Shown: positions 10,275 to 29,176 of the stretch, piece after piece
Numbering within the stretch: the first letter of the stretch is position 1
Layout: each line of letters begins with the position of its first letter
Assembly (NCBI GenBank): GCA_031841125.1
Contig: CM063109.1
Span: 24,771,321-24,835,320 of the forward strand
DNA: 64,000 bases
DNA from: Acanthococcus lagerstroemiae
Taxonomy: Eukaryota > Arthropoda > Insecta > Hemiptera > Eriococcidae
Direction of reading: 5' to 3'
Position numbers and translations under genes: made by a program
The notes under the pieces: model-generated
Seen by the model: only the letters and a program-made list of their open reading frames with translations
Database searches by the model: none
What the model was told of the DNA's origin: nothing

Positions 10275-10280
10275 CATACT
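10275..10280. repeat. Polinton target-site duplication, left copy (CATACT)
   Basis: CATACT directly abuts the element's first bases, AGTAGAAAGGG. The same hexamer follows the right end at 27768-27773. Six-bp duplications are the known hallmark of Polinton/Maverick integration. Confidence 0.9.
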
Positions 10281-10715
10281 AGTAGAAAGGGCTACACTTG
10301 AGGACAAACCGCTTCCCCCGTGGTTATAGCTCCCCCATGTATGATGTGTGTGTATCTATAGTACGTACCGATCCTCCATTAAATGTCCGCCATGGTTCCA
10401 GCCCCCTCGCCACGAAAATACGCCCCCTACGACCCATAATATGGCCGAGAGAACGCAGTTCGTCGGGCCGTCTTGGTATGCGGGCGAATTTGGTGTTTAA
10501 AAAAAAACAGTTGTATCGGAATATACACAAAGCAGTGTGATGTTTTCGCCGGGCTGGCATGCGAATTAGGGGCTGTATTGGAATGTTGTCTATAATATAC
10601 CTACACAAAGCAGTGTGATGTTTTCGCCGGGCTGGTTTGCAAAATGAGTCGCATTTGTTTTACAAAACAGTTTTGTATTCGTAGGTATGTGACTGCCCCG
10701 TCAGGTAGGCGCCTC
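10281..10715 (+). repeat. Polinton left terminal inverted repeat
   Basis: Matches the reverse complement of about 27333-27767, nearly identical for the outer 400 bp and then fading around 10690-10715. It contains an internal 34-bp direct repeat with a 78-bp period (10524-10557 and 10602-10635, beginning TACACAAAGCAGTGTGATG), present in both inverted repeats. Open frames in the two repeats mirror each other and are not taken as genes. Confidence 0.93.
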
Positions 10716-10967: not shown

Positions 10968-11071
10968 CTTCAAGCGCCTTCGCTACCGATAAGACGTGTC
11001 TCTCTTGATACAGCTCTGATCGATTTACGAAAGCATTTCAAGCTATTTCTCGTGTATTTCTCTTCTGAAAT

Positions 11072-12677: not shown

Positions 12678-13075
12678 GGGTCGGTGTTTGTATCTTATTG
12701 GTTGTCGTTCGGGGCTTGTGTTTTTCGGGGTTTGTTGGTTGATTTGTGTCTTCGGGTTGTCGTTTTTTTCCTAATTTGTATCTTGTTGGTGGATTTTTCG
12801 CGTTTTTCGGGGCTTGTAGGTTGATCTGTGTCTTGTTGGGTGATTTTCTCTAATTTGTTGCTCGTTTGGTGGGCTTGTATTTTCTTTGTAATAGGTCGGT
12901 TTTGGTACTTTTTTTCGGGGGCTCGTCATATTGGGACTTGTATTTTTTGTAACTGGTGTCTTATGATAGGTAGTTTTCTCATAATCCGGCAGTCGGGGCT
13001 TGTATTTTTATTGTAATTTGTAGTCTGTTTTTGTCTCCTTTTGGTCTTCAGAGCGTTTGTATACGTAGTAAAAAC
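12678..13075. other. G/T-rich intergenic region between the two SAP-like genes
   Basis: Strongly strand-asymmetric sequence in which GGGGCTTGT or close variants followed by T-runs recurs at about 12716, 12808, 12866, 12940 and 13000. No frame in it looks coding. It may be a decayed tandem repeat or a regulatory/replication region of the element; nothing in the sequence decides between these. Confidence 0.45.
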
Positions 13076-13178
13076 AGCGTTATATGTATAGTATATCGTA
13101 CGAGCTAATGCTGTTGTAAAAAATCATACAAAGGGCCAATCATAATTCAGAGATAGCTATGGTAGTCCTCTAAAAATC

Positions 13179-13214
13179 TATAAATACAGGGTCTTCTAGC
13201 CTTCCTAGTCATTA
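13179..13214 (+). promoter_or_regulatory. TATA box plus initiator for the second SAP-like gene
   Basis: TATAAATA at 13179-13186 is followed by TCATTA at 13209, a 30-bp spacing matching the promoter at 10933. The gene's ATG is at 13288. The shared layout supports duplication of a promoter-plus-gene unit. Confidence 0.7.
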
Positions 13215-13287
13215 GCTTACTTGGCTTGTTACCGGAAGGTTGTACTTGATCTCTGTGTAATAATCTGAAAAAAGCATTCTTTCTGCG

Positions 13288-14166: not shown

Positions 14167-14198
14167 ACGAGTGTATTTTCACAATTCATACGGTTAAT

Positions 14199-17100
14199 AT
14201 GCCTCGAGGAGCAGGACGGTCAAAAATTTTGAATTTAGCTAATGATAGGCGAACTAAACAATGTATTCTGCAAATAAAAAACACAGATAACCTCTGTGCA
14301 CCACGCGCTATAATAACAGGGTTAACCTACCATACTAATGTGATTTTAGATAGGGAGCTGTCTGATAATGAGATTTGTTATATACGTAAAGGCCGTAGAC
14401 TTCAAACAGAGTTAGCTATGGAATTATGTAACAGGCTGCCTAATTTCACTGAAGACGGTTTTACACTAGCGGACATCAAAAATGCCGAAGAATTATTAGA
14501 CATACAGGTAAAGGTAGTATGTGCTGAGAACTTTAACACAGTAATTTATCAGGGGATTGAGAAAGAAACAAAAGTATATTTATACAAGGTAGGTAGCCAT
14601 TTCGACGTTATTATAAAACTAAACGCTTTATATGGAGCTGCCTTTTACTGTACAGTGTGCGATAGAACTTATAGTCATAAAAATCAGCATAAGTTTAAAT
14701 TAATTAAGAATGCCTGTAACTTGTGTACAAAGGAGGAACACCTCCCAGACTCTCGAAAAAAGATTTATTGCCGCGACTGTAATAGATACTGTTTCAACGA
14801 GGCGTGTCTCTATAATCACGTTATTAATGTCTGTCCTGTAGTATACAAATGCAAAAAATGTAATATGATAATCAAGAGGAATAATGACGCTCATAAATGT
14901 GGTTGGGCCCGCTGCAAGAACTGTCAGGAATTTTTGGAAATTAAGACTCACCAGTGCTACATGTTGAATAAAAAGGCCAAAGGAGGCAGATGTGGTCAGT
15001 GTAAGAAGTGTACCCCTAATAACGCTACACAAAATCCAGACTGTACCTACACAGAAAAATACATTTTCTTTGATTATGAAACTGACCAGTCTTCCGGAAT
15101 ACATGTCCCTAATCTGGTAGTGGCCCATGATTTCGAGGGAAATAGGTACAGCTTCAAGAATAACGACGAATTTTGTGAGTGGTTGATTTCTAAAGAACAT
15201 AGGAACTACACCTGTATTAGTCATTATGGAAAGGCGTTTGATAATTATTTCATTCTCCAATACTGCGTTGCCAACACCATCAAGCCGTGGAGTATCTACA
15301 ACGGTACCAAAATCCTCCTTCTAGAAATTCCCCAAATTAACATGAAGATTATAGATAGCCATAATTTTATCCAATCAGCTCTGAGTGCCTTCCCCGAAAC
15401 ATTTGGTTTGAACGAGTTGAAAAAAGGTTTCTTTCCACATCTGTTCTCGAAAAAAGAGAACCAGACATATATAGGGAAAATGCCAGATAAGAAATATTAC
15501 TGTTATAACCGAATGAAACCAAAAGTCCGTGCTACTTTTCTAAAATGGTACCAGGAGCGGGTGAATGAAAATTACGTGTTTGACTTCCAAAAAGAACTGT
15601 TAGAATATTGTCAATCAGATGTCGATATACTGAGACGTGGCTGTCTCGAATTGAGGAAACAGTTTCTGGAAATTGCAAATATCGACCCCTTTCAGTATCT
15701 AACTATCCCGAGTGTCTGTATGGCTATATACAGATCTAAATATTTGAAACCAAAAACCTTAGCCGTTTTAGAATCAGAATTTAAAGACCAGTATTCGAAA
15801 GAATCAATCACATGGCTAAATTCTTTAAAAAATGTTAATATTCAGCATGCTCTGAATGGGGGTGAGGTTAGTGTAGAGGGGGCAAAAGTCGACGGATATG
15901 ATGCATCCACTAAGACAGTTTTTCAATATCATAATTGTTACTTTCACGGCTGTAGGAAATGTTTTCAAGAGGAGACTATAAATAATGTTAATAAGACAAC
16001 GATGGGAGATTTGTATCAGAAAACTAAAGACCGTACTGCCCAACTTGAAAATGCAGGTTTTGAAGTAACCGAGATGTGGAGCTGTCAGTGGTTAGAATCG
16101 AAAGAATATAAAAAATGTGAAAAACCGGAGGTTATTGAACCATTGAACCCTCGTCATAGTCTCTTTGGTGGCCGTACTGAAGCATTTAAACTAAAAGCCT
16201 CCTCTTCTAGTACCGAAAAAATAAAATATATCGATGTGTGCTCCTTATACCCAACAGTCATGTATTATGATAAATACCCTATAGGGCACCCACAGAAAAT
16301 ATTTACCCCCAAACAATATGATCCGAACTGGTACGGTATCATTAAATGTAAAGTCTTGCCCCCATCGAGTCTGTACATTCCCGTACTACCTGTTAAAGTA
16401 AAAACTACTACACGTAGAGTTTCACCAATAGGGAAAATAAAAATAACTAAATCAGACAAACTAGTCTTTCCCCTATGCTTAAAATGCGCCCAGGACCAGA
16501 GTAATAAAAAATGTACTCATACCGAAAGCGAACGCGCCTTCATAGGCACATGGACTACTGATGAGGTTGAGAAAGCCAGACAGCAGGGATATAAAATTCT
16601 CAAAATATATGAAGTTTGGCACTTTAAATCTTCTACGGATCTCTGGAAAGGTTATATCGAGGACTTCATGAAGATAAAATTAGAATCTAGCCCACATAAT
16701 TTCCCTTCTAATGAAGCTTATGCTCAGGATGTTAAAGAAAAAATGGGGATAATTTTGGATGTTAATCGCGTAGCAGTCAACCCAGGGAGGCGGGCAGTAG
16801 CCAAGCTTTGTCTAAATTCGCTTTGGGGAAAATTCAGCCAAAGACTCAATCTCTGTGCCTCCGAATTCATCACAGAGCCCCAACGCTTCTACGAGATTCT
16901 CCTCGATGACCGTTTGAAAGACGTGAACATGTTCTATATTTCGGATGAGATGGTTCAGGCTAATTATAAGTCCCGGGATGAATATGTTAAAAATAATTAT
17001 AATACCAATATCTTTACGGGGGTATTCACCACTTCTAATGCCCGACTTAGACTCTACGACCAATTATCAAAACTAGACCAGAATGTCCTATACTGTGACA

Positions 17101-17498
17101 CCGACTCGATCATATACAGAGACGATGGATGTAATACTGTGGCTACCGGTGACTGTCTTGGAGAGTGGACTGATGAGCTGGGTGGTGGACACATCACCAA
17201 GTTCCTAACAACTGGCCCAAAATCGTACTACTATAAGACAGACGGCGGCAAAGAGACGACTAAAGTTAAAGGTTTTACCCTTAATCATGCAAATGCCCAA
17301 AAAATTACTGGTCAGGCCTTGGAAAATTTAATAGACAGAAAAATCAAAAATATTACTGTAGAAGATGGGATAATTACTCGAGATATTCAGACTAAAAATC
17401 TGGTGAATAAAGAACAGTCAAAAACGCTAAGTTTCAATTTCGACAAACGAGTAATTCGCCCCGATTTTGATACAGTTCCTTATGGTTATAAAAAATAA
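14199..17498 (+). CDS. polB: Protein-primed family B DNA polymerase (pPolB)
   Basis: Intact 1099-residue frame, the replicative polymerase of the element. The 3'-5' exonuclease acids are visible at D292/E294 (FDYET), D348 (FDNYF) and D474 (YCQSDVDIL). The polymerase motifs are A with D679 (DVCSLYP), B with K869 and N873 (KLCLNSLWGKF) and C with D967/D969 (YCDTDS). Before the exonuclease lies a cysteine/histidine-rich zinc-binding region from about residue 151 to 275 (CTVC, CNLC, CRDC, CKKC, CKNC, CGQC). The N-terminus has NTDNLCAPRA, a segment often seen in Polinton polymerases that recalls a cysteine-protease active site, though I cannot show activity. The protein would prime from a terminal protein at the inverted-repeat ends. 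No frame break was seen, in contrast to the capsid genes. Confidence 0.97.
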   Translation: MPRGAGRSKILNLANDRRTKQCILQIKNTDNLCAPRAIITGLTYHTNVILDRELSDNEICYIRKGRRLQTELAMELCNRLPNFTEDGFTLADIKNAEELLDIQVKVVCAENFNTVIYQGIEKETKVYLYKVGSHFDVIIKLNALYGAAFYCTVCDRTYSHKNQHKFKLIKNACNLCTKEEHLPDSRKKIYCRDCNRYCFNEACLYNHVINVCPVVYKCKKCNMIIKRNNDAHKCGWARCKNCQEFLEIKTHQCYMLNKKAKGGRCGQCKKCTPNNATQNPDCTYTEKYIFFDYETDQSSGIHVPNLVVAHDFEGNRYSFKNNDEFCEWLISKEHRNYTCISHYGKAFDNYFILQYCVANTIKPWSIYNGTKILLLEIPQINMKIIDSHNFIQSALSAFPETFGLNELKKGFFPHLFSKKENQTYIGKMPDKKYYCYNRMKPKVRATFLKWYQERVNENYVFDFQKELLEYCQSDVDILRRGCLELRKQFLEIANIDPFQYLTIPSVCMAIYRSKYLKPKTLAVLESEFKDQYSKESITWLNSLKNVNIQHALNGGEVSVEGAKVDGYDASTKTVFQYHNCYFHGCRKCFQEETINNVNKTTMGDLYQKTKDRTAQLENAGFEVTEMWSCQWLESKEYKKCEKPEVIEPLNPRHSLFGGRTEAFKLKASSSSTEKIKYIDVCSLYPTVMYYDKYPIGHPQKIFTPKQYDPNWYGIIKCKVLPPSSLYIPVLPVKVKTTTRRVSPIGKIKITKSDKLVFPLCLKCAQDQSNKKCTHTESERAFIGTWTTDEVEKARQQGYKILKIYEVWHFKSSTDLWKGYIEDFMKIKLESSPHNFPSNEAYAQDVKEKMGIILDVNRVAVNPGRRAVAKLCLNSLWGKFSQRLNLCASEFITEPQRFYEILLDDRLKDVNMFYISDEMVQANYKSRDEYVKNNYNTNIFTGVFTTSNARLRLYDQLSKLDQNVLYCDTDSIIYRDDGCNTVATGDCLGEWTDELGGGHITKFLTTGPKSYYYKTDGGKETTKVKGFTLNHANAQKITGQALENLIDRKIKNITVEDGIITRDIQTKNLVNKEQSKTLSFNFDKRVIRPDFDTVPYGYKK

Positions 17499-17857
17499 TG
17501 TACAACTATTTAAGAATTTTGTTTATTATTTATATAAGAAATGCTTGATTTAGTATTTTGTATATCAACTAAATGGATATAATCAAAGTTTTTTTAAAAT
17601 TTTTATCTGACTTGTTACAAAGCTGTATAATGTAGACTAGATTTTATCCAATGCCGCTTGGTCAGACTCTTGAAAAATGCGTCTTTTTGGCATACATTTG
17701 ATGGTTCATTGATTCTATTTGGGAAAATGTTATTCAACTATTACGCACTTTTTCAGTAGGCCCAGTATGTTTTACATTTTGTAACTCATGAGTGGTAAGA
17801 AATATAGCCATCTATGTACAATTTCTATTTTTGTATCCTTTCATATCTTTTTTGCTC

Positions 17858-17930
17858 CTTTTTTCGAAGGAATGCTCCTTTTTCTCGAGGGAATGCACCT
17901 TTTTTCGAAGGAATGCTCCTTTAGTTGAAT
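17858..17930. repeat. GGAATGCTCC/TTCGAA minisatellite, short array
   Basis: About three units of roughly 24 bp containing TTCGAAGGAATGCTCC or CTCGAGGGAATGCACC plus T-runs. The array lies immediately beyond the end of the ATPase frame. A longer array of the same unit is at 19421-19546, so the two arrays bracket the integrase and ATPase genes. Confidence 0.85.
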
Positions 17931-18595
17931 ACATATTCAAAGTTTTTCTTTATCTGACACTTTTCGCAATCGATGGCCACAAAACTATAGGGTTCACCCC
18001 AACACTTTTGACAAATCTGCTCAAATTGTTTGAAATCTAAACCCCAGGACTGTATTCGTCAGAAATCTGTCGCAAATTTACTTTATCTTGTTTGAATAAA
18101 ATAAAATAATTGAAATTCTCCCTAATTCCCGACTTCTTCGGTATCTTTGTAAATGATTGGGTTAAATAAAAGGTAGAAATCTTTCTGTGTCGGCCTCGCA
18201 TGAAGTAGGTCGCGATCTTGTCCTGCTTCTCTGTTAAAATATCGTCGAATACCACAATAGAGTTCTCGGGTATCTTTTCGGGGGGGTGGTAAGTCTTCAA
18301 CATTGCTGATTTCGTGATAATGTATCTTTTTTTGTGCGCTCTGATTATAACTATTGATTAAGTCGGCCAAAAATCTATATTTCGGTTGATTGTTTGTCTT
18401 GGAACATAAAAATATATCAACTAATGGTTTCTTATGCATGAGAATCGTAAGCAAAACATTTGTCTTACCTGACCCCGACCCACCAGCCAAACATGCCCTC
18501 ATTGTATCAGGAAATGCTTCTACAGCTCGTTGTATAGGTGTAGACTGGTTGTCAAAGTTCAACACCTTTATGCTGTTTTTAATTCTTTTCGACAT
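17931..18595 (-). pseudogene. A32-like FtsK/HerA-family DNA packaging ATPase, two frame breaks
   Basis: Genome-packaging motor of the element. From the ATG at 18595 the frame shows Walker A GGSGSGKT at residues 38-45. The reading then shifts at a G7 run (18280-18286), after which Walker B (SIVVFDDIL) and the QSFTKIP region follow. A second shift at a short C-run near 18040 is needed to reach a C-terminal segment ending at 17931 that looks family-typical (FEQICQKCW, FVAID). Both breaks fall in homopolymers, so assembly error is possible as well as decay. The 5' end overlaps the integrase 3' end by 28 nt. Confidence 0.85.
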
Positions 18596-19488
18596 TTTGT
18601 TTTTAAAAGTTCCAAATTATAAAATTTACCAATAATTTGTTCTCCGCTCTGATCTTGGATACTGTATGTTATCGGATCAGTGTAATGAATGCGTCGTATA
18701 ATGAAGATTTCACGAGTCCAAGGTGCTTTATATTTATTTTCAAATGTGCTCTGTTTAGTCGCTATTCGTACTAAATCGCCTATACGGTATTTGGGTTTCT
18801 CGAATTTGAAGTTATTTATACTAAAAAGTCGTTCAAAAATCTCTTTCTCATTACTTTTATTCACTTGTGAAGGGGTCATGCTGATTGTACGGTGAACTGT
18901 ATTATTGTACGTTTTTGTCAATTTTTTCAAAAAATCCACCCACTTATGATTACCGTTTTTCGTAAACTGAATTTTCAAGTAACTGTTAATGGTTCTATTT
19001 GCCCTCTCGGCAATAGCCGACTTTTCATCGTTATTGGTATGGTACATGCGAATAGAATGCTTTTCTAAAACCGATCTAAAAGGTGTGTTATAGAACTCCT
19101 TCCCTCTGTCCACGTGAAGTAAATTAGGGCACCTGCCCGATTTCTTAATAATCCTTTCAAAAGCTGTAGCTACTTCTTTACCCGTTTTGGTTTTCAACGG
19201 TTCTAAAAACATATACTTGGAGAAAGTGTCAATTATGTTCAAAATATACTTAAATCCCCGGTTTTGTCGCGAATAATCTTTAAGTACGAGCAAGTCACCT
19301 GCCCAAAGATCATCTATACCCCTAGTAACGATTTTTCTCTTCCTAAATTTACGAATGACAGGGGCATGTAACTCTTTTGCCTCTTGTAAACTAGTCATCT
19401 TATACATATTTTGGTCCTTTTTCCGAAGGAATGCTCCTTTTCTGCACCTTTTCTCGAAGGAATGCTCCTTTTTCTCGAGGGAATGCAC
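18568..19488 (-). CDS. Retroviral-type (rve) integrase of the Polinton
   Basis: Cuts and joins element ends to host DNA, giving the 6-bp duplication. The 306-residue frame has the catalytic triad at D65 (WAGDLL), D127 (HVDRGKEF) and E161 (AIAERAN), with 33 residues between the last two. A C-terminal SH3/chromo-like segment (YRIGDLVRI, KYKAPWTREIFIIRRI) is also present. The first 27 codons translate the minisatellite at 19421-19546, so the true start is more likely the ATG at 19407 or 19398. The N-terminal zinc-finger region typical of many relatives appears missing; the conserved ELHAPVIRKFRKRKI starts almost at once. The catalytic core itself is open. Confidence 0.92.
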   Translation of the reverse strand: MHSLEKKEHSFEKRCRKGAFLRKKDQNMYKMTSLQEAKELHAPVIRKFRKRKIVTRGIDDLWAGDLLVLKDYSRQNRGFKYILNIIDTFSKYMFLEPLKTKTGKEVATAFERIIKKSGRCPNLLHVDRGKEFYNTPFRSVLEKHSIRMYHTNNDEKSAIAERANRTINSYLKIQFTKNGNHKWVDFLKKLTKTYNNTVHRTISMTPSQVNKSNEKEIFERLFSINNFKFEKPKYRIGDLVRIATKQSTFENKYKAPWTREIFIIRRIHYTDPITYSIQDQSGEQIIGKFYNLELLKTKCRKELKTA

Positions 19489-19546
19489 CTTTTTTCGAAG
19501 GAACGCTCCTTTTATGCACCTTTTTTCGAAGGAACGCTCCTTTTAT
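19421..19546. repeat. GGAATGCTCC/TTCGAA minisatellite, long array
   Basis: Five to seven units of about 20-25 bp with the same core as the array at 17858-17930. Low-complexity T-rich DNA (19547-19665) follows. The array overlaps the annotated 5' end of the integrase frame, and open frames on the other strand through it are artefacts of the repeat. Confidence 0.88.
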
Positions 19547-19671
19547 ATCTTTTTGTATCTTTTTTCCCCCAACTATTTACACTATTTACACTTATTAGCT
19601 ATTGTATCTTCTTTTTTCTCTTTTTTTCTTTTTTTTCTTTCTTTCTTTTTTTTTTTTTTCAACTATTTACA

Positions 19672-20007
19672 CTATTTACAATTATTAACTAAAAACTCTA
19701 GGCAGAGATGTCCACAGATTACTTCATTTATTTCCTGGTCCTGGTTATAATTGAATAACACAGTCGATTTTTTCCCCCAATAATTAATCAATTCTAATGG
19801 AGGATCGACACCGAATGAGTCGTAATATTTCACAGTATTCCCTTTCTTAGTGTAACAAATCCAGTGAGTGCCACTATTTTCAGAATTATCGAGATTCACG
19901 ATAGCTGATTCAGTTTTTTTGACACGCTCGGGTAATTTGTCTTTCATGTAAACACCTCTAAAATTGGGAATATCTTTTGCATACGTTTCCAGCTCTAAAT
20001 TACTCAA
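19672..20007 (-). CDS. Adenovirus-type (adenain/Ulp1-like) cysteine protease
   Basis: Capsid maturation protease. Catalytic residues visible in the 111-codon frame are H48 (SGTHW), D63 (YYDSFG), Q89 or Q91 in YNQDQ, and C98 (ICGHLC). The length from the stretch NFRGVYMKD to the end fits the family. The frame begins at a TTG at 20007 and has no ATG before residue 21, although the preceding residues (SNLELETYAK) look conserved. Upstream the frame is open only to 20040, crossing an A12 tract (complement of 20022-20033) at which it lies in the -1 register of the PLA2/pX frame. Expression by slippage from that frame, or an indel in the tract, would explain the missing start. Confidence 0.85.
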   Translation of the reverse strand: MSNLELETYAKDIPNFRGVYMKDKLPERVKKTESAIVNLDNSENSGTHWICYTKKGNTVKYYDSFGVDPPLELINYWGKKSTVLFNYNQDQEINEVICGHLCLEFLVNNCK

Positions 20008-20828
20008 CGGTCTGATAGGGATTTTTTTTTTTTCAGAAATTCACGATATAACTCATTCCCTTCTACTGGCTCTCTTTTATTCAAGTATAAACCCTTACCA
20101 CCACTCTTCCTGACACCTGAGCCTTCAATTACCTTATTATGACGTTTTCTCTCAGCTACTAAAGCATCATTCGCTTTTTTATTATTGTAGGCGTTGATTG
20201 CACTCGTAATTAGTGAACCTATACCCGCTATAGCAGGAATACTCGCCAATACTGCAGGTAAAAATCCCCCAGATTTGATTTTTTTTAATTGATCGAGTGA
20301 TAACCTAATTCTCTCACCTTTACGAATTTTTGTGATTTGTTTACGTGTTAATGGTAGATACGTGTTACTCATTACAGAATTTTTAGTACGGCCCTGTTTG
20401 ACCTGAATAACTATAGATTTTTTTGAAGTTGCAATCAGTTTTTGTTGGGTTTCGTCTAAATTCACAGGATATTTCACATAATTAGTTGTCTTCTTCTTCG
20501 CAGAACGTAGGCCGGCCCCCATTTTTTGTTTAACTTTCATAACATTAGTCACAAGCCATGCGTTGAGTTTTTCCATTAAATCAGAGTCGCCTGCTGTAAC
20601 ACGTTTCCATGAGTCCTGTTCTAACTTATAATCGGCCTCATGCCTATCTTTTAAATTATCGGATTGTGCATAACTGATATCGTGGTGCATACAAGCTTCA
20701 TCGAGTTTGTTCTTTGGCTTTACATTTCTCTCCAATTTTAAATCTAAATTTGTTCCAGGACCAGCATATTGGTATCCCCCAGGTAGATGACATTCTATAG
20801 GCAATTTATTGATCAACGTATTGATCAA
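20004..20828 (-). CDS. Parvovirus-type phospholipase A2 domain fused to an adenovirus pX-like segment
   Basis: Virion-associated protein of adintovirus/Polinton type. The PLA2 domain has the calcium loop YAGPGT at residues 21-26 and the active-site helix HHDISY at 48-53 (H49/D50). Residues 187-215 form a glycine/alanine-rich hydrophobic stretch (GGFLPAVLASIPAIAGIGSL) like the adenovirus core peptide pX and relatives in these elements, flanked by basic residues. PLA2 activity is known in parvoviruses to aid escape from endosomes; that role here is an inference. The frame starts at TTG 20828 and has no ATG before residue 47, within the active site. It opens through an A12 tract (20847-20858) in the -1 register of the upstream gene, as described under findings. 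Confidence 0.85.
   Translation of the reverse strand: MINTLINKLPIECHLPGGYQYAGPGTNLDLKLERNVKPKNKLDEACMHHDISYAQSDNLKDRHEADYKLEQDSWKRVTAGDSDLMEKLNAWLVTNVMKVKQKMGAGLRSAKKKTTNYVKYPVNLDETQQKLIATSKKSIVIQVKQGRTKNSVMSNTYLPLTRKQITKIRKGERIRLSLDQLKKIKSGGFLPAVLASIPAIAGIGSLITSAINAYNNKKANDALVAERKRHNKVIEGSGVRKSGGKGLYLNKREPVEGNELYREFLKKKKSLSDR
20022..20033 (-). promoter_or_regulatory. A12 tract at the PLA2/pX-to-protease junction (possible slippage site)
   Basis: Again twelve A on the coding strand, ten codons from the PLA2/pX stop. The protease frame passes through in the -1 register and has no ATG of its own upstream of its conserved start region. Confidence 0.5.
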
Positions 20829-20836
20829 TCCTCCTC

Positions 20837-21604
20837 CTATTTTACCTTTTTTTTTTTTGGACGGGTTGAGGGAACATTTCGAGTATTTTTTGAGTTCTTG
20901 CTTGTCTGTAATCCATCTTCTTCAGCTAGTTCTTGTTGTATGTTCACAAGTTCATTAACTAAATGAGGATTGGTGTTGCCTGCATTTAATTCACCTACTA
21001 GTATATATAGTCTTTTCATGAGTTCGTCTCTAGTGTTCCAGTAGACATATTCGACAGGTGTATTTGTCAGTATTTTTTGTAACCCCCCACCCCTCTTGAT
21101 TTTTCCTCTAGTTATAGGTCCTTCATCAGTATGTCGCCCTTTTGCTAAAATTTCTTTATATTTTTTCAAATCGGTCTTATTATATTGTGTAGAGTCTGAT
21201 TGTTGTGTTATTAAACGCCAGAGACCCTCTGTCCCATGGATAACTTTACCATCTTGAAAAATCAGATTATTATTGACAATCCATACGGGTTCGTTACCTA
21301 TGTACAAATGATTATTTTTAATCTGAATACCTAGTTCTGTATTAGATGGCGTGTAATCTTTTAAATATTTGTAAGCTATATTCCCGACCATTTCAATTTT
21401 ATCACCCATTTCTATGTCTTCTTTTTGTTTTTTTTCAAAACGCTCTATGGGAGGTTTTTGATTCAGTTGCTTATCGATACTATGCAGAGGTGTTAATAAA
21501 GGGGCAAACTGTTCTTCTAAACTGATTTGTCTATTAATTTTCCCTCGTTTTATTTCTTCATACTTGGCGGCTAACGCCTTACCTAATCTGATATACTCCT
21601 CCAT
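20837..21604 (-). CDS. Polinton conserved protein of DUF8207 type
   Basis: A 255-residue protein with a good ATG. Residues about 70-135 contain NIAYKYLKDY, LGIQIKNNHLYIGNEPV, NNNLIFQDGK and GTEGLWRLI. This matches my memory of a domain (DUF8207) that recurs in Polintons and related arthropod and cnidarian repeats, with the sequence GTxGLWxLI as its hallmark. The C-terminus is lysine-rich and ends in the A12 tract at 20847-20858. It lies 7 nt downstream of the penton stop. Function is unknown; its position among capsid genes suggests a structural or assembly role. Confidence 0.75.
   Translation of the reverse strand: MEEYIRLGKALAAKYEEIKRGKINRQISLEEQFAPLLTPLHSIDKQLNQKPPIERFEKKQKEDIEMGDKIEMVGNIAYKYLKDYTPSNTELGIQIKNNHLYIGNEPVWIVNNNLIFQDGKVIHGTEGLWRLITQQSDSTQYNKTDLKKYKEILAKGRHTDEGPITRGKIKRGGGLQKILTNTPVEYVYWNTRDELMKRLYILVGELNAGNTNPHLVNELVNIQQELAEEDGLQTSKNSKNTRNVPSTRPKKKKVK
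20847..20858 (-). promoter_or_regulatory. A12 tract at the DUF8207-to-PLA2 junction (possible slippage site)
   Basis: Twelve A on the coding strand close the DUF8207-like frame (lysine codons, then V-K-stop) while the PLA2 frame runs open through the same tract in the -1 register. Long A tracts are slippery for both ribosomes and RNA polymerases. A one-base miscount in the assembly would look the same. Confidence 0.5.
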
Positions 21605-21611
21605 TTTTTAT

Positions 21612-22321
21612 TTATTTAGCCGGTCTAAAAGCTAAAGTAATCGAAATTTTCTCGCCTCTAAAGTCGACTATTTTACCGTCTTGATCTACTATAGTCACGA
21701 ATAAGGCGTGTATTTCTTCACTATTCACCCTGTAATAAGAAATATTATTGGGTCGTTCAATAATTTTCTCACCAACCTTGTTGTTTAATGGAAAGTCGTA
21801 CAATGTGTTGTCGTGAAGCTTTTTATCGTCAATGTTACACTTGATTAGGTTACATTTAACTCTCACTGTATTTATAGGAAAAATGTTGATAGGCAGGTCG
21901 GAATATTCGACAGCGTTTTGGGGGACAATACGTGTATTACCGAATCCTAAAATATAACCAACTGAATTTTTAACTGAGAAGTCAACGCTACATTTAGAAC
22001 AGAATACTCCCACCCTCAATGTGTTTTTATTCAAAAACATTTTTAGACCAGTCCCAGCGAATTTTGTACTAGTTAATATAACATTAATAATATCATCGAG
22101 CTCGTATGTACCATCAGCTATCTCTAGAGTGAGCAGAGTGCTGGTAGTGTAATCTCTAACAGCAAATATGTTGTTTTTAATGATTTTGAAATATTCGGGA
22201 TAGAGTTGTAGGTCACAAAACTTTTTAAACCCACTTCATAAGCACCATCTAACCGGATCTCTGGCTGGTACTCGCGGTGTATGGTTGACTTGTTACTGTT
22301 TAACGAAATCTGGAAACTCAT
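21612..22321 (-). pseudogene. Penton/minor capsid protein, one frame break
   Basis: Single jelly-roll vertex protein of the virion. The N-terminal frame (from ATG 22321) has the family-typical RLDGAYEVGLKSFVTYNSIPNI. The rest of the protein lies in a second frame that runs through ADGTYELDDI and then the segment from 22040 (GYILGFGNTRIV, YYRVNSEEIHALFVTIVDQDGK) to the stop at 21612. A single one-base shift near the T-runs at about 22174-22187 separates the two. Its ATG overlaps the previous stop as TAATG. Confidence 0.85.
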
Positions 22322-22323
22322 TA
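22319..22323 (-). promoter_or_regulatory. TAATG stop-start overlap
   Basis: The stop TAA of the upstream VDFQ-type gene shares its last A with the penton ATG. Such TAATG overlaps serve as termination-reinitiation sites in some viruses and LINEs. I see no well-placed TATA box for the penton gene, so coupling is plausible but unproven. Confidence 0.45.
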
Positions 22324-22839
22324 TTTATTTTTCCTGAACCAGTCCTTATAGATCACGACGTTTTTTAAGGCACACCTAATGCGTGTATTCTTTGGCGAAT
22401 ACGGGTAACGCTGTTTGTGGTAAGAACACCCTGAAAATTTAGATGTAGAAACCAGATCTACAGTACGTGGACAATTAAGTGTATCTAAATCGCACACTAC
22501 CACCTTAAACTGCAGTAATTCCCTCAAATACTCGGCGCGTTCGCTACCTTTAATGTACACTATAGACGCCCCTCGCACACAATCTTTCAGTAGTTTCACA
22601 GCGTCAAGAAACGTAGTATAACCGTCGTCCCAACGAATGCCGTGAATTTTTGCACACACGTAATCTACCTGCAGTCCCTCAAGTGGTTCCAATACAGAGT
22701 ATGGAAATGGTGGTTTGATAAGACAATGCGTACTCTCGTCACACTTTATACACACAATAGCTAACTCTTTCAACACAAATTGATTATTATTAATTTTAAA
22801 AGCTTGGAAATCGACAATAAGCTTGTGTCTATACTCCAT
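22321..22839 (-). CDS. VDFQ-type accessory protein 1, paralogue of 26465-26944
   Basis: A 172-residue protein from ATG 22839. Start choice: a TATA box at 22881-22889 predicts transcription from about 22855, and the 15-codon-longer frame would begin with a non-ATG codon. Conserved blocks shared with the second copy are IVDFQAFK, NQF(V/I)(L/I)KELAI, KPP(F/C)PY, IHG, VKG-ER-YL and DLD. The opening block, a beta-strand ending in D followed by a KELAI strand, resembles the exonuclease I region of DEDD-type nucleases, but the usual glutamate after the aspartate is absent. Function is unknown. I recall similar proteins encoded in arthropod genomes but can name no characterised relative. Confidence 0.7.
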   Translation of the reverse strand: MEYRHKLIVDFQAFKINNNQFVLKELAIVCIKCDESTHCLIKPPFPYSVLEPLEGLQVDYVCAKIHGIRWDDGYTTFLDAVKLLKDCVRGASIVYIKGSERAEYLRELLQFKVVVCDLDTLNCPRTVDLVSTSKFSGCSYHKQRYPYSPKNTRIRCALKNVVIYKDWFRKNK

Positions 22840-22880
22840 AACGATTAAAATCAAACTGACCGTTTTCCCCTACCGTGGGT

Positions 22881-22889
22881 CCTTTTATA
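22881..22889 (-). promoter_or_regulatory. TATA box (TATAAAAGG) for VDFQ-type gene 1
   Basis: TATAAAAGG on the minus strand, about 45-50 bp upstream of ATG 22839. It is the only clear TATA box seen upstream of the closely packed block running to the protease. Confidence 0.65.
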
Positions 22890-22993
22890 CTTTATCCAAC
22901 ACCTCAGTCTACACAATGACTTACGATTCTTCTTCTTAAACATCAAAAAGAAGGAAAATAGACAGTTGGTAGATTTTTCTTCAGAGCCCATTT

Positions 22994-25019
22994 TTAACCA
23001 GAAACAACCCGATTATTCAGAGGGTTATATATAGTTTTATGGTCCGAAATTAAAACGATGTGTATATCCAGAGAAGACGGAAAAACTGAGCGCCAGTTAA
23101 AGATCACTTTAATATTAATTAAAGATTCTTTTATAACATCCGGCTGGTATGAAGAATCAATCGCGATAATCGGGTATTTGGTCAGGAAAGTATTGTAATC
23201 TATTAACGGCTCAATTTCATCTTCATTTTTGTTATAGTAGGCTGATTTAAACTTTTTGAACATTTGGTAAAGATTGGAACACCTTCTTTCCGCAACATTC
23301 AAATTTAGTCTTTCACGGGGGTAATAGACATTATTGTTGAGCACTACCTGGACATTTTCTAAATCTCTCAGTTCAAAAGTATCTTTCCCGCGAGACTGGA
23401 ACCCAATTAAAATATATTTAGTGCGCGAATAAGCCGTGGGTATATCCCAAACAAAATTAGGACCGCTGACACCTGAAATCGAATGATGTAACCAACCTCG
23501 ATAAAACAACTCGTAATCAGTATTGTTTAAAATGGCCTTTCGAACCTGGGTGGCGTAGCTCAGATTGAATTTAATTTGAGGCACCCTCCAAACGATATCT
23601 TTCAGATTAACACTGATTTTATCGTCGGGGTATACTGCGGGGTTTAGATAGAACGCTGTGTGAAAGTGGTTAGTTGTTCGATAAAATACTAGTTTTTGGG
23701 GAATACGGAATAGAAATTGTTTATGATCCTCGAAAAAGCCCATAACTATGGACATAGGTATACAAACTGAAAAGTAACCCTGCTCATTCATCACGCTCTC
23801 CTGATTTTTGACAGACCAACCCGTATTACTGTACTTTAAATCATTTTCAAAACACGCTAGACCCTTCATTGTTGTAGAAATCCCTGGTTTTCTTATACTG
23901 TCTACCTTATTATCCCCTATATAGTAGTCAATCCGCTCGAAAAATCTCAAGATACCATTATTAAGAAGACGAAAATCTTCAGGTTTATAACACTACCCAA
24001 CAGCCAAAAAACCGCAAGAACGAGAGTAGCCGATTCTAGAAGTATTTTTCACGCTGAATTCAATGCCGCTTTTTGTTTTTCTTAATTAGCTCTCCTTTTC
24101 TCGTAAATTCATTCTGAATTATTTCCCGTAATTTCCCTCACGTGTTAGAAATATTAGTGAATGTGGCCACACTGCATGTATCACAAAACAAACTCGCCAA
24201 CACAGTGACGCGTGTGAACGTGTGTTTTGACGTTTTGATATCGAGACGATCTAAACAGTTTCAACTGATTCTAAGATTTTATCATTAACGATGAAGTGAT
24301 GGAACAACAGTTTTGAGGAAGGCGATCTCTTCAGTGAAAAAATAACGCCTTTTCATTCCGGTATTACAGTTTATTGTTTCTTTTACGAAATGTAAGTGAA
24401 CTAGATAAATGTGTTCCGACAATAAATTTGATGAATATGTATTCAATGCATGAGTATTCATGATAATCACAACGTTCGTTGTTGAATTGGAATAAAATAC
24501 TTACGGAACACAGACGGACAGAGAACAACACGGAAGTTTTCTATTCAGTACCGTCGAAGACGAAGCTTATCGGTAATATCAGTTTAATACAACATCAGTG
24601 TCGCCACATAAAATAGAACAATTTCTCATAATACACTATTAAATTTCCCAGCAAACGTAAAAAATGATTAGCTAACTCAGCATTTTTAATATCATATTTG
24701 AATTCAGCGTGAAAAATACATTAAGAATCATCTATTTTCCTTCATGCGGTTTCCAAAAAATCTCAGTTTGTTGTGTAGTGTAATCTGTAACACTCTCCAT
24801 AATATCCGCCTCTACGGCATTTTTATCATTTTTAAAATCAGTTTTTATTTGCCTCAACGTCACTTTACCACTGATTACTAGTAAACTCTTACAAGGCCGG
24901 GTCACTATGTCCTCATTATAAACAATTATAGGAAACTCTGTTCCTAAATCGTTAAAATTTTCGGATACAGGAGGCCTGTAATCGTAATACTCGACACTCT
25001 CAATGATATTGTCACCCAT
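22994..25019 (-). pseudogene. Double jelly-roll major capsid protein, split by a MITE
   Basis: Main shell protein of the virion. The N-terminal part starts at ATG 25019 (IESVEYYDYRPPVSENFNDL) and is open until the MITE at 24009-24752. The C-terminal part resumes to its left and ends at 22994. It contains family-typical blocks: KIHG-free RFFERIDYYIGDN, GISTTMKG, GFFEDHKQFLF, LKDIVWRVPQIKF, NVYYPRERLNLN, KFKSAYYNK and PIIAIDSS. Even without the MITE the two halves are in different frames near the insertion, so at least one further indel is present. The TATA box is at 25067-25074. The gene cannot make full-length capsid as assembled. Confidence 0.88.
24009..24752. mobile_element. 744-bp MITE inserted in the capsid gene
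   Basis: The ends form an imperfect inverted repeat of about 55 bp. The outer part reads AAACCGCA and the inner, perfect part reads GTATTTTTCACGCTGAATTC (24042-24061 against 24700-24719). CCAAA flanks both sides (24004-24008 and 24753-24757), a possible 5-bp target duplication, though the A-run makes its edge ambiguous. No coding potential. The superfamily is unknown. Confidence 0.8.
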
Positions 25020-25066
25020 TGTCGCTCTGAATGCAAATGAACTTATTTTTAACTAAACTTACCTCC

Positions 25067-25074
25067 TATATATA
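25067..25074 (-). promoter_or_regulatory. TATA box (TATATATA) for the major capsid gene
   Basis: TATATATA on the minus strand about 50 bp upstream of ATG 25019, similar in spacing to the other boxes of the right arm. Confidence 0.6.
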
Positions 25075-25089
25075 GTTTTTTGTCTACCC

Positions 25090-25593
25090 TTACCCGCAAA
25101 CATCTTCACTAGCCTCTCGCTCAGCTAGATATTTACTTTTTGCTTCATAGTTGGCCATGTTCTGAACCTCCCCGTAATTCATTAGACACACACAAGGTTC
25201 GGTATATTCAATCGGGAAAAATCGACACTTACATTCTTGGCAGAGGTCAAAGCAGAAACACCCACCGTGAGTAGCCTGGGGGAAAATAACTTCGGGAAAT
25301 TCATATCCACCCTTCTCTACCTTTTTCATACCTGTGTACATTAAAAAATGTACAGACTCCCGAAACTCAGCCAACTTCTGCTCATCGGTGAACTTTTTAA
25401 CAATGCGCGGTGGTAGCACGATTTTCACATCATCTAAAACACATGCCCACAGAATCTTACCATTCCACTTACTCGCGAATGAGAATACCTCTTTCACTGT
25501 ATAAAACACACCTTCTCTCAAGTTTTGAATTTTCACAAACGGTGAGCCGTTCTGATAAGAACGATTTTGTTTAACACAACAAGGTGAATCCAT
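25090..25593 (-). CDS. Accessory protein, possibly OB-fold-like, with a cysteine-rich tail
   Basis: 167 residues from ATG 25593; the longer frame opens with TTG, and the TATA box at 25652-25659 favours the ATG. The N-terminal half (VKIQNLREGVFYTVKEVFSF, then KWNGKILWACVLDDVKIVLP) has an alternating beta pattern. It resembles a small beta-barrel family I associate with transposon-linked arthropod proteins and possibly single-stranded DNA binding; this is an inference. The C-terminal half has clustered cysteines (CFCFDLCQECKC, then CVC), a possible zinc site. It precedes the capsid gene on the same strand. Confidence 0.6.
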   Translation of the reverse strand: MDSPCCVKQNRSYQNGSPFVKIQNLREGVFYTVKEVFSFASKWNGKILWACVLDDVKIVLPPRIVKKFTDEQKLAEFRESVHFLMYTGMKKVEKGGYEFPEVIFPQATHGGCFCFDLCQECKCRFFPIEYTEPCVCLMNYGEVQNMANYEAKSKYLAEREASEDVCG

Positions 25594-25651
25594 ATCGTCC
25601 GATCGCAAAGACAGTCAGAAGATAAATGATAATTTGACCTGATTTGGGTGC

Positions 25652-25659
25652 TATTTATA
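25652..25659 (-). promoter_or_regulatory. TATA box (TATAAATA) for the 25090-25593 gene
   Basis: TATAAATA on the minus strand, 6 bp beyond the stop of the upstream gene and about 60 bp before ATG 25593. Confidence 0.65.
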
Positions 25660-25664
25660 ATTTT

Positions 25665-26378
25665 TTAGTCCCCGAAAGTTAGTGCCTCTATTCTACCCGA
25701 TGGTAGTCGAAAGTATTTCACCGATGTTTTCCTACTTATGACACGTCTGTTATAAGTTGTACCCTTACTAATAGAGATCAAAGGTTTCAACTTGCAGGAT
25801 CTGCAGTAATATCGGGTCGCATAGTCGGGCTTCAGATAATAATCGGAGATCAGTTGGAAATCTGTTACAGTCTTTGTGTAAAGTTCACGAGTACCAAACA
25901 CTCTTATAGATTCCTGAGTTTTCAAAAATTCTATGTATTTTTCCGCGCATTCTTGACACATATAACTAATTTGGCCAATACCCCCTTCATTGTAATCTTT
26001 ATTGTCGGGTGTATGCCACCATACAGTAACATATTTATGAATCAGCTTATTAGGACCTTGGTGTATAACCTGCTCGCGAGAATAGTCGCTTTCCTGCAAA
26101 GAGATATAAAATCGGATATTTAGGGGTCTGTTTGCTAACGTTTCGAGCGTGTCGTTATAGGAATTTTTAATGTTATTATTATCGCGGACTTTAGATTTTG
26201 ACCAAGCTAGAATGTCTTTAGGTGTCATATTAAGCCATTTATTTTTTAACCAGTTCTCCAAGAGTGGAGGGAACCCACTAATATCGTACATACTGTTAAT
26301 GCCTGCGAAGTAAGCATTTATGGATAAATCAAGCAGTGTAGGCGAGCTCTGAAAAGAGCTATTTTCAGTAGAAGTCAT
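25665..26378 (-). CDS. Accessory protein with two CxxC pairs, function unknown
   Basis: 237 residues with a good ATG. No family was recognised. A CQEC pair occurs near residue 135 and a CRSC pair near residue 190, so a zinc-ribbon-like fold is possible. The first 60 residues are serine-rich and then hydrophobic (FPPLLENWLKNKWLNMTP). The gene has its own TATA box at 26466-26473, which overlaps the end of the gene before it. It sits in a row of separately promoted genes with the same orientation, which supports it being real. Confidence 0.65.
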   Translation of the reverse strand: MTSTENSSFQSSPTLLDLSINAYFAGINSMYDISGFPPLLENWLKNKWLNMTPKDILAWSKSKVRDNNNIKNSYNDTLETLANRPLNIRFYISLQESDYSREQVIHQGPNKLIHKYVTVWWHTPDNKDYNEGGIGQISYMCQECAEKYIEFLKTQESIRVFGTRELYTKTVTDFQLISDYYLKPDYATRYYCRSCKLKPLISISKGTTYNRRVISRKTSVKYFRLPSGRIEALTFGD

Positions 26379-26464
26379 CGCAGAGATTATTAGCAGATAT
26401 CAAATAATATATCCTTCTGGTAATAAGCCAAATGCGTGAGTGATTCTCTCAGACAGCCTCCGCC

Positions 26465-26944
26465 CTATTTATAACCATGATTCTTCAGGTGCTTTTTGTA
26501 GGCATATACTTTTGCTAGGGCACAACGTTGACGGTTAAACAAGTGTGCCTTACATGCGTTGTCTGTATCAATTTTGGCCCTAATATAAATATCTAAATCC
26601 TCAACCCGTACTTTACCTTCTAATACCCTCGAAAGATATTTTACCCGTTCAGTACCCTTCACAAGAGCCACAGCCGCCTGTTTCAATAAATTGAGTCTTA
26701 ATAAAGCCTCGACGTGCCTGTACTCGATTGTCCCTAAACTCCAGGGAAGCCCGTGTATATGATTAGACAGAAAACTGACTCTTTTTTTCATTACAGGGCA
26801 TAACTGTGTGTAAGGACAAGGCGGTTTGAATATGAAACCTATTGCGTTACTCTCATCATTATACTTGAGTATCGCTAGTTCTTTGATGATAAATTGGTTA
26901 TCAAGCGATTTGAATGCCTGGAAATCAACAATGAACACGTCCAT
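26465..26944 (-). CDS. VDFQ-type accessory protein 2, paralogue of 22321-22839
   Basis: 160 residues from ATG 26944. The TATA box at 26995-27002 predicts transcription from about 26968, so the upstream ATG at 26986 would lie outside the transcript. Shared blocks with copy 1 are FIVDFQAFK, NQFIIKELAIL, FKPPCPY, HIHGLPW, LVKGTERVKYL and EDLD. Overall similarity between the copies is moderate, so the duplication is old or the genes are fast-evolving. The function is not known. An RNase H/DEDD-like origin is conceivable from the first block but the catalytic pattern is incomplete. Confidence 0.7.
   Translation of the reverse strand: MDVFIVDFQAFKSLDNQFIIKELAILKYNDESNAIGFIFKPPCPYTQLCPVMKKRVSFLSNHIHGLPWSLGTIEYRHVEALLRLNLLKQAAVALVKGTERVKYLSRVLEGKVRVEDLDIYIRAKIDTDNACKAHLFNRQRCALAKVYAYKKHLKNHGYK
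26466..26473 (-). promoter_or_regulatory. TATA box (TATAAATA) for the 25665-26378 gene
   Basis: TATAAATA on the minus strand lying inside the last codons of VDFQ-type gene 2, about 90 bp upstream of ATG 26378. The overlap of stop region and next promoter shows tight packing. Confidence 0.65.
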
Positions 26945-26994
26945 ATTGCTCCAGAATTCTATGACAGAATGGTGGAGATAATTCATACCCCCTA

Positions 26995-27002
26995 CTTATA
27001 TA
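26995..27002 (-). promoter_or_regulatory. TATA box (TATATAAG) for VDFQ-type gene 2
   Basis: TATATAAG on the minus strand. It overlaps the stop codon (26996-26998) of the PPP1R15-like gene. ATG 26944 is about 58 bp downstream. The box is identical to the one at 27278-27285. Confidence 0.65.
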
Positions 27003-27238
27003 GATGTTTTTCTAACATTTATGAGTGGTGTGGCAAAGTGCCTGTAGTAGATATTACACCTATGGTTTGGATCAAGAATAGGCGATAAAATATTTTCAAC
27101 ATTTCGAATTCTGCGCCGGAAACGCACACGATCTCTAGCCGCCTGTACCCAAATTGATGCCCGCTCCTCTCTATCAAACTCAATCCAACAAACAGCAACC
27201 TTCTCATTAAAGCTTACACGTTTTTTATCCTGCGCCAT
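26996..27238 (-). CDS. PPP1R15/GADD34-like PP1-recruiting protein
   Basis: An 80-residue protein that looks like the conserved core of PPP1R15. KKRVSFNEKV (RVSF at residues 7-10) is a PP1 docking motif of RVxF type. It is followed by hydrophobic residues, then W30 and ARDRVRFRRRI at 34-44. In PPP1R15A/B, herpes simplex ICP34.5 and African swine fever virus DP71L, an RVxF-type motif and a W-x-x-x-ARDR-x-RF-x-x-RI helix recruit protein phosphatase 1 to dephosphorylate eIF2alpha and restore translation. The same order and spacing are visible here. Start choice: TATATAAG at 27278-27285 places transcription near 27255, so the ATG at 27238 is used rather than the one at 27316. Activity is an inference. 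It is the outermost gene, next to the right inverted repeat. Confidence 0.78.
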   Translation of the reverse strand: MAQDKKRVSFNEKVAVCWIEFDREERASIWVQAARDRVRFRRRIRNVENILSPILDPNHRCNIYYRHFATPLINVRKTSI

Positions 27239-27277
27239 TGTAAAATGCCTGTGATGTGCGCGACAGAGTTCGTCGCT

Positions 27278-27285
27278 CTTATATA
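27278..27285 (-). promoter_or_regulatory. TATA box (TATATAAG) for the PPP1R15-like gene
   Basis: TATATAAG on the minus strand, with a TCACA initiator-like sequence about 31 bp downstream and ATG 27238 about 47 bp from the start of the box. Confidence 0.65.
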
Positions 27286-27332
27286 CATGCGCTTTTTTCC
27301 GTTGAAACGCATTCAAACAGGGAGCATCGAAA

Positions 27333-27767
27333 CTAAGCGGCGCCTGTCCGACGAGGACATGACATACCTAACCGAATACAAACTGTTTTTGTAAACAAAT
27401 GCGACTCATTTTGCAAACTAGTCCGACGAAAACATCACACTGCTTTGTGTAGGTATATTATAGACAACATTCCAATACAGCCCCTAATTCGCATGCCGGC
27501 CCGGCGAAAACATCACACTGCTTTGTGTATATTCCGATACAACTGTTTTTAACACAAAATTCACCCGCATACCAAGACGGCCCGACGAACTGCGTTCTCT
27601 CGGCCATATTATGGGTCGTAGGGGGCGTATTTTCGTGGCGAGGGGGCTGGAACCATGGCGGACATTTAATGGAGGATCGGTACGTACTATAGATACACAC
27701 ACATCATACATGGGGGAGCTATAACCACGGGGGAAGCGGTTTGTCCTCAAGTGTAGCCCTTTCTACT
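27333..27767 (-). repeat. Polinton right terminal inverted repeat
   Basis: Reverse complement of 10281-10715 with few differences, including both copies of the internal 34-bp repeat. It ends CCCTTTCTACT at 27767. Confidence 0.93.
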
Positions 27768-27773
27768 CATACT
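27768..27773. repeat. Polinton target-site duplication, right copy (CATACT)
   Basis: Identical to 10275-10280. Confidence 0.9.
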
Positions 27774-27862: not shown

Positions 27863-29176
27863 TCATTGAGTTTTAGGGTCTTTCGCACTTTTCGCACAGA
27901 TGAACTTGGATATGTGATAAAGCCGGTTTTGGCGATCAGTCGTTCCACATGCTACCCTATATACTGTTTTTGATACTTTTTCGATGATTGGGAACGGGCC
28001 GATTCGAATTTGATCAAGTTTATGTCTATTTAGCATGTTTCCATTTTCTACATATACTAGATCTCCGATTTTAAGCTGTTTATTTATTTTATTTTGATCA
28101 TATTTTGTTTTATTTACTTGGTGATTTTTTAATGTATTATTATATGCTTTTAATCTATCCAAGTTTAAATCTTCAGTTTTTCTTAGTTCGGAAGGTATTA
28201 TGTCTATACTCTTTCCGTTTAAGAGGTATTCGGGGGCGTAGTTAGTTACTGAGTGTATCGTTTTGTTATATTCATCGGTGCACTGTCTTGCTATAGTTGT
28301 CCAGGCTTTGTTATTGTCATCCTCGTTCATTCGACAGCGGATCCTATTTACAAGTGTCTGGTTGAGACGTTCATTAAGGCCGTTTGAGAATGCTGAATCT
28401 ACTGCAGTAAAAATATGTACGATATTATTGTTTGATAGATATTTCTGCAGATCATCGGACGTGAGGCCCCCAAATTGATCTGTGAGGAGGGTTTTTATTT
28501 TATTTTTATCGTGTACTGATTGTATTAATTTTATAAAGTCCTCCGTATTTTGAGATTTTGAAGTCGAAATGAACGCGTAACGGGTGAAATGGTCAACTAA
28601 TAAATGTAGGTAACGTTTTGTGGAACGCCGACCGCCGAAACCTCCTATTGAGTCCAGAGACATAATTTGAAAGGGTTCTGTAGGCGGTCCCAAGTGTCCT
28701 AACAGACCGAATTTCTTTCCTTTACGTGTTTTGTTTTTTATACACGTTTCGCATTCCGATGTTATTTTTTTATGATTTTGTACATATTTTTGGCAGAATA
28801 ATGCGGTGTAATTGTTCGAATTAGGGCGTCTGTGCCTATGTGGCCAAGTTCCTTATGGGCTCTTTCTACTAATGTTCTAATTCCCTGTTCACTTAATACT
28901 ATTTGCTTTTTATTATTTCTATGTTTATAAATGATTCCGCTTTCGTTTATCATATCTTCATCCTGTTGGATGTCTCTTTGATCGTTTATTATTTCTGCTA
29001 TTTTTAGAAAATTTACCGTGCTGATTACTTCGTTTTGCATATTTGACTCTGCATTAAGGACAGGGTTCCTTGATAAGCAATCTGCCTCCTGGTTATTTTT
29101 TCCTGGTCTGTATATTATATTGAAATCGAATTGAGCTAAGAAGTTCATCATGTCCCCAAGTTCTTCATCTGTGCGT
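27863..29176 (-). mobile_element. Ty3/gypsy-like element 2, RNase H end and integrase
   Basis: Different from gypsy element 1. Reading the minus strand from the gap: the end of RNase H (FDFNIIYRPGKNNQEADCLSR), the integrase zinc-binding domain (H-x3-H visible as HKELGHIGTDAL; the cysteine pair CETC lies across a frame change near 28700-28760), then the catalytic core at 27863-28693. The core has SLDSIGG, LLTDQFGG and GLNERLNQTL as the D,D,E residues and a GPY/F-like module (IRIGPFPIIEKV). The 277-codon integrase frame is intact. The 5' part is in or beyond the gap at 29177. The Polinton's right end lies 90 bp beyond the integrase stop, so the Polinton may have inserted into this element's 3' region. 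Confidence 0.88.

Follow-up and report, generated by a model that had tools for sequence, protein, structure and literature searches.

A minimal PPP1R15-like gene carried by Polintons in the genome of Acanthococcus lagerstroemiae, with a proposed role in reversing translational shut-off

Results

A Polinton with a PPP1R15-like gene at its right end

The window, a 64,000-nucleotide stretch of the genome of the scale insect Acanthococcus lagerstroemiae, contains a 17.5 kb Polinton (10281-27767) lying between terminal inverted repeats; its features are listed in Table 1. The element resembles Polinton/Maverick elements in its long terminal inverted repeats, its 6-bp target-site duplication, and its genes for PolB, an rve integrase and a double-jelly-roll capsid protein. 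When the ORFs of the element were scanned against Pfam, only weak, sub-cut-off matches to an FtsK/A32-type ATPase were obtained, and no protease family (adenain-like) was found among the ORFs scanned. The capsid frame is open for 332 codons, compared with 421 in five near-identical copies, and is shorter than that of most such copies; the window element may therefore be inactive, and is probably impaired.

The sequence-only reading of this DNA had described the outermost gene of the right arm as encoding an 80-residue protein with an RVSF motif followed by W and ARDRVRFRRRI, and all of these were present (residues 7-10, 30, and 34-44, respectively). The gene is the outermost in the Polinton; its start codon, at 27238-27236 on the minus strand, lies 142 bases inward of the right terminal inverted repeat and opens a frame of 80 amino acids with no internal stops. 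That reading also held that a dedicated promoter and an ATG support a real gene; the ATG and an uninterrupted 80-codon frame are present, and the single TATA match, TATATAAG, is by itself weak evidence.

Table 1. Features of the Polinton and of its PPP1R15-like gene (window coordinates)
Feature	Position	Strand	Evidence or remark
Target-site duplication CATACT, left copy	10275..10280		read from sequence
Left terminal inverted repeat	10281..10673		96-99% complementary to 27380-27767
Protein-primed-type DNA polymerase B (PolB)	14199..17498	+	PF03175, E 5.9e-46
P-loop ATPase-like ORF, 157 aa	18122..18595	-	Pfam matches weak, all below cut-offs
rve integrase	18568..19407	-	PF00665, E 1.2e-13
Double-jelly-roll major capsid protein, 291 aa	22994..23869	-	PF21738, E 2e-30
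orf167, neighbour common to C-type elements	25090..25593	-	72% identity to L047 2310-2783
orf237, neighbour common to C-type elements	25665..26378	-	29-44% identity in C loci L014, L017, L027-L031
orf173, next gene inward of the PPP1R15-like gene	26465..26986	-	orf172 paralog; no Pfam family above cut-off
PPP1R15-like gene, 80 aa	26996..27238	-	PF10488, E 8.3e-7; PDB PPP1R15/DP71L matches; 48 host-genome matches
W30 codon, aligned with PPP1R15B W662	27149..27151	-	invariant in 7/7 representatives and 46/46 alignment rows
RVSF codons (residues 7-10), PP1-docking motif	27209..27220	-	V and F invariant in 7/7 representatives; RVxF-like in 45/47 element-type copies
Candidate TATA box TATATAAG	27278..27285	-	consensus match only, read from sequence; 47 bases 5' of ATG
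Right terminal inverted repeat	27380..27767		96-99% complementary to 10281-10673
Target-site duplication CATACT, right copy	27768..27773		read from sequence; perfect 6-bp duplication with left copy

Several other features of the region were recorded. The orf172 (22321-22839) and orf173 (26465-26986) genes are paralogs with approximately 41% identity in cross-matches, neither with a Pfam family above cut-off. Two left-arm proteins (11406-12677 and 13288-14166) carry repeated Rho_N (SAP-like) motifs, one of them with a 177-base tandem repeat, and pieces of a retroelement-type integrase lie directly beyond the right end of the Polinton (27863-29151).

Homology to PPP1R15

The window protein matched PF10488, the PPP1R15 core, with 29.3 bits (E 8.3e-7), above the curated cut-off of 26.1 bits, and no match to this family at E <= 1 was found in the other nine window ORFs of the same scan. 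The PPP1R15 identity proposed from the letters thus has the significant profile match that was named as its own test. Six sequences were listed by a PDB sequence search at E <= 10, five of which were PPP1R15A, PPP1R15B or DP71L (E 1.6e-6 to 2.4e-4), with DP71L the best match; the sixth, a splicing factor (E 1.1), was taken as chance. A profile built from seven representatives, the host exon described below among them, matched PPP1R15A (E 7e-18), PPP1R15B (5.7e-13) and DP71L (1e-11) in the PDB, and PF10488 was matched by all seven. A chance motif is ruled out by the Pfam and PDB matches together with the genome-wide recurrence reported below.

With the window protein as sole query, a protein database search returned one candidate and none that was scored; with the seven-representative alignment, 48 proteins were obtained among 211 candidates. 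Many of the 48 resemble insect PPP1R15 exons, with an intron-like leader ending before VRF, and the organism names on three of them are Odontomachus, Bracon and Cotesia. P0017 (Bracon brevicornis) bears the UniRef name 'Protein DP71L', yet it looks like a piece of the wasp's own PPP1R15. Two metagenome proteins, P0047 and P0048, also belong to the PPP1R15 family and possibly come from undescribed viruses, the contig of P0048 being up to 31.6 kb. Among IMG/VR viral contigs, the window protein found no relatives and the window PolB no match; a search of the same contigs with a degenerate DNA motif gave one match, judged by eye to be chance (a helicase-like frame surrounds it). As expected, no relatives were found in an annotated phage collection.

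Conserved residues and predicted function

Functional residues named for PPP1R15B are RVxF, the hydrophobics Y650 and I652, W662, F672, I676 and R658, the last of which occupies the PP1 Arg site; the terminal helix F696-Q700 serves actin binding (PMC4394352). When the window protein was aligned on PPP1R15B, R26 corresponded to R658, W30 to W662, F40 to F672, I44 to I676 and Y64 to F696 in the actin-binding helix, while C17, W18 and I19 sat around the hydrophobic sites. Invariant in the seven representatives, host exon included, are V8, F10 and W30 and, after W30, A34, D36, R39, F40, I44, L51, L55, H59 and R60. In a broader alignment of 46 rows (the window protein, 40 of the 48 database proteins and five other element-type proteins, with eight short or near-duplicate proteins omitted), W30 is the sole invariant residue, while R26 belongs to the nearly invariant positions. 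The Arg-site arginine four residues before W is found in all 8 A-type and 13 B-type copies and in the B-like L002 (types are defined below) and is replaced in some C copies, e.g., by Q in L014 and W in L061. AlphaFold2 modeled the window protein with a mean pLDDT of 80.1 and a pTM of 0.41: the first 21 residues are unstructured and helices span residues 22-55 and 57-68, with a pLDDT of about 88-96 over residues 31-70. Such a predicted unstructured start followed by helices is in line with a protein that takes up its fold upon binding its partners.

We consider it likely, on these alignments, that the protein recruits PP1, together with actin, to dephosphorylate eIF2alpha and so lift translational shut-off. 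Produced from the gene at the right end of the element, it would wrap the host PP1 catalytic subunit with RVSF, the hydrophobics that follow, and R26; W30 and the helices after it would be set against G-actin, and PP1 would thereby be aimed at phosphorylated eIF2alpha, restoring translation once the activity of the element or virus triggers an eIF2alpha kinase. PKR is not known from insects, and therefore the kinases opposed would probably be GCN2 or PERK. Expression, binding of PP1 and actin, eIF2alpha dephosphorylation, and benefit to the element are all steps that we infer from sequence.

An unlikely, though the most serious, alternative is that the protein binds PP1 for some other purpose, either steering it towards some other phosphoprotein of the host or the element, or sequestering it. 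The RVxF motif by itself is common to many PP1 regulators (PMC4394352), and KGP is gone from in front of W30 in the window type, which reads ASIW where B and C types, PPP1R15A/B and DP71L read KGPW or QGPW, a difference that counts against a PPP1R15 function; such a turn is nevertheless not strictly defining, because the host exon has ISPW. What argues against the alternative is that the protein keeps the part after W30, including the invariant residues listed above from A34 to R60; in PPP1R15 this part confers specificity for actin and eIF2alpha rather than binding to PP1.

Recurrence of the gene in three element types

A search of the host genome (658 Mb, 438 contigs, nine of them large) gave 48 PF10488 matches, 30 of them above cut-off; 47 are element-type and one is an apparent host PPP1R15 exon. 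This exon (exon H, at C7:1645461) begins at an AG splice acceptor directly before VRF and, judged from its 1.3 kb locus, looks like the host's own PPP1R15. Throughout the family a separate exon codes for the core (PMC4394352), and database protein P0001 is a relative of exon H, 94% identical over the core.

The window type, type A, comprises 8 copies with protein identity of 99-100%. Type B comprises 13 copies in which the gene adjoins an integrase; identity to the A protein is 40-46% in the twelve copies found by tblastn, and L026, whose second half is altered, gave no hit. In type C (25 copies) the gene lies beside orf237- and orf167-like genes, and identity to A is 35-46% (eight copies whose loci were in the tblastn run). 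One further copy, L002 (G000:C6:55161019-55161213), is B-like, has an open frame and has the top PF10488 score of all 48. No element genes were found within 9.9 kb around it (L032), and it is a solo remnant or possibly a domesticated copy.

B elements have their own rve integrase and PolB, the latter (L034) with 20% identity to the PolB of A over a 142-residue stretch, and in 8 of the 13 copies a capsid match lies about 6-7 kb from the PPP1R15 gene. The orf167 of C is 72% identical to that of A, and the 16 capsid matches with 55-56% identity to A include the 6 with a C-type PPP1R15 gene no more than 15 kb away. Judged by these sequences, A, B and C are distinct elements, with C nearer to A than B is. 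A relative of orf172/orf173 adjoins the PPP1R15 gene in B elements.

A PPP1R15 gene was present within 8 kb at 8 of the 11 A-type capsid places checked and absent within that distance at C6:23921947, C2:8160353 and C3:10398643. Sequence shared between A copies stops about 510-600 bases before the ATG (716 in L016, 146 in L022), marking the terminus; several C pairs lose shared sequence at about 440-490 bases before the ATG, which suggests that the gene is outermost in C elements too. The sequence-only reading had looked to related Polintons for the same gene at the same place. This held for all eight A copies (by order relative to orf173 and orf237) and seemingly for C, but not for B, where the gene sits beside the integrase. 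The motifs on which it staked the identification, RVxF and A-x-D-x-x-R-F, are found again in further Polinton families of this genome.

A database search gave capsid relatives bearing the names Parthenolecanium corni and Kerria lacca. No telomere array was seen at six contig ends of the host genome, and G000:C6:37039622-37058656 was found to hold six same-strand capsid-gene matches, mostly about 3.9 kb apart, forming a tandem array of capsid-gene units. The 96 COX1 matches in the host genome are mostly short chromosomal pieces with TGA codons, probably nuclear mitochondrial DNA copies; the mitochondrial COX1 sequence is very AT-rich and insect-like. A member of the COX1 family that reads through in the standard code lies on a small contig (C11:405992-407317) and is probably bacterial (endosymbiont or contaminant).

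An accessory gene under purifying selection

Capsid genes of the host genome (356 candidates, 126 scored) were sorted into bands by Pfam score. A PPP1R15 match lay within 15 kb of 8/11 capsids in the B band and 6/21 in the C band, and of 0/92 in four other bands and 0/2 of the remainder; these bands are a rough sorting rather than a tree, that of C is mixed, A capsids fall outside the 126, and some contigs are short. Because 92 of the 126 scored capsid genes, in four bands, have no match within 15 kb, we regard the PPP1R15-like gene as an accessory gene of some lineages.

Internal stops are absent from 43 of the 47 element-type copies; the other 4 have stops, and further copies have altered ends. 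RVxF, R, W, F and I stand together in an uninterrupted frame of 64 codons or more in 39 of the 47 (8/8 A, 13/13 B, L002 and 17/25 C), a test that excludes the C-terminal helix, which is altered in, e.g., L013, L024 and L026. The dN/dS ratio was computable in 16 of 19 pairs and was 0.07-0.49 in 15 of these 16, with diverged element pairs at 0.24-0.49; L063, which has an internal stop, enters two of the compared pairs, and three A-B-C pairs were saturated at synonymous sites. Fisher tests on four pairs gave p values of 5.6e-5, 7.2e-4, 0.013 and 0.040. The PPP1R15-like gene is therefore under purifying selection in the elements, although the L004-L003 pair (five differences) had a dN/dS of 1.03, and neutral change is also expected in copies that reside in the host genome, both of which count against our reading.

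These data bear on whether the gene might be a passenger, captured once and since then retained without currently benefiting either element or host. That Polintons of this genome manage without it, as at the 92 capsid genes above, and that some copies have internal stops or altered ends would fit such a history, but the dN/dS values well below 1 in diverged pairs and the presence of the gene in three element types and at two different positions make it very improbable. Least credible of all is that the copies are extra PPP1R15 genes serving the host: although L002, whose frame is open and whose 9.9 kb surroundings (L032) yielded no element gene, might alone do so, the copies are numerous, dispersed and mostly within elements, and the host seems to retain its own PPP1R15 exon at C7:1645461.

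Origin and number of captures

In a tree of 59 rows and 73 columns only, A grouped with P0039 (support 99/91) near C, and B lay apart. Holding A with the clade of the host exon, P0001, P0002, P0003, P0007 and P0010 was rejected (AU p 0.016), and with it the capture of A from this host's own PPP1R15 gene; holding B with the host clade was not rejected (AU p 0.27). Neither A+B+C as one clade (AU p 0.104) nor A+C (p 0.279) was rejected. The earlier suggestion that the gene was taken from a host gene or from another virus is thus narrowed for A by the rejection of the host-exon clade, and no donor was identified.

Counted from the F of RVxF, the distance to W is 20 residues in A and 24 in B and C. 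From these comparisons, one capture followed by rearrangement and two captures are both possible, and we lean towards two captures because positions, polymerases and RVxF-W spacing differ. We propose tentatively, with somewhat more doubt than conviction, that insect Polintons took up PPP1R15 in two or more independent events (one in the A+C line, one in B) and kept it to defeat the eIF2alpha-kinase response.

Discussion

Whether Polintons are infectious viruses is a long-standing question. Reversal of translational shut-off would fit a bulk replicator in a cell that fights back, and less a quiet transposon, and such elements may counter host-cell defenses as free viruses do. If the repeated-capture proposal is true, the integrated elements would be viruses that were infectious until recently and had a true countermeasure against host shut-off, and Polintons could be a reservoir from which other insect DNA viruses obtain PPP1R15. 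The system offers a handle for testing: a single 80-residue protein, conserved residues already characterized in solved structures, and several naturally occurring variants within the same insect genome.

To our knowledge, a PPP1R15 gene is not among the known genes of Polintons. Literature searches found no report of a Polinton/Maverick with PPP1R15, GADD34 or eIF2 (subscription papers and non-PMC preprints being thinly covered), and nothing relevant on PF10488 or on horizontal transfer of PPP1R15/DP71L in viruses; the main text of PMC11071296 contains no GADD34, PPP1R15, ICP34.5, DP71L, eIF2 or phosphatase. This agrees with the sequence-only reading, which knew of no such gene described for these elements. 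It appears that the protein is of an already known kind and that the Polinton as its carrier is new, so that the list of PPP1R15 carriers gains an element class.

The window protein shares with cellular PPP1R15A (GADD34) and PPP1R15B (CReP) the ~70-residue C-terminal core, with RVxF, the Arg-pocket R, W, F, I and the terminal helix; unlike them, it has no long N-terminal region, its frame has no intron, and it is encoded by a Polinton. Mammalian PPP1R15 proteins, by comparison, exceed 600 residues (PMC4394352). As predicted from its sequence, the window gene encodes a minimal viral-type PPP1R15, essentially the ~70-residue C-terminal core alone. The viral PPP1R15 proteins of herpes simplex virus (ICP34.5), African swine fever virus (DP71L) and a granulovirus (coGV-gp036) are likewise core-only or core-containing and borne by DNA viruses. 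Because the granulovirus protein is named, beside the herpes case, in PMC4394352, the use of a PPP1R15 strategy by an insect DNA virus has a precedent. The carriers there, however, are herpes-, asfar- and baculoviruses, whereas here the carrier is an integrated Polinton, and identity is 40-46% even between A and B within one genome.
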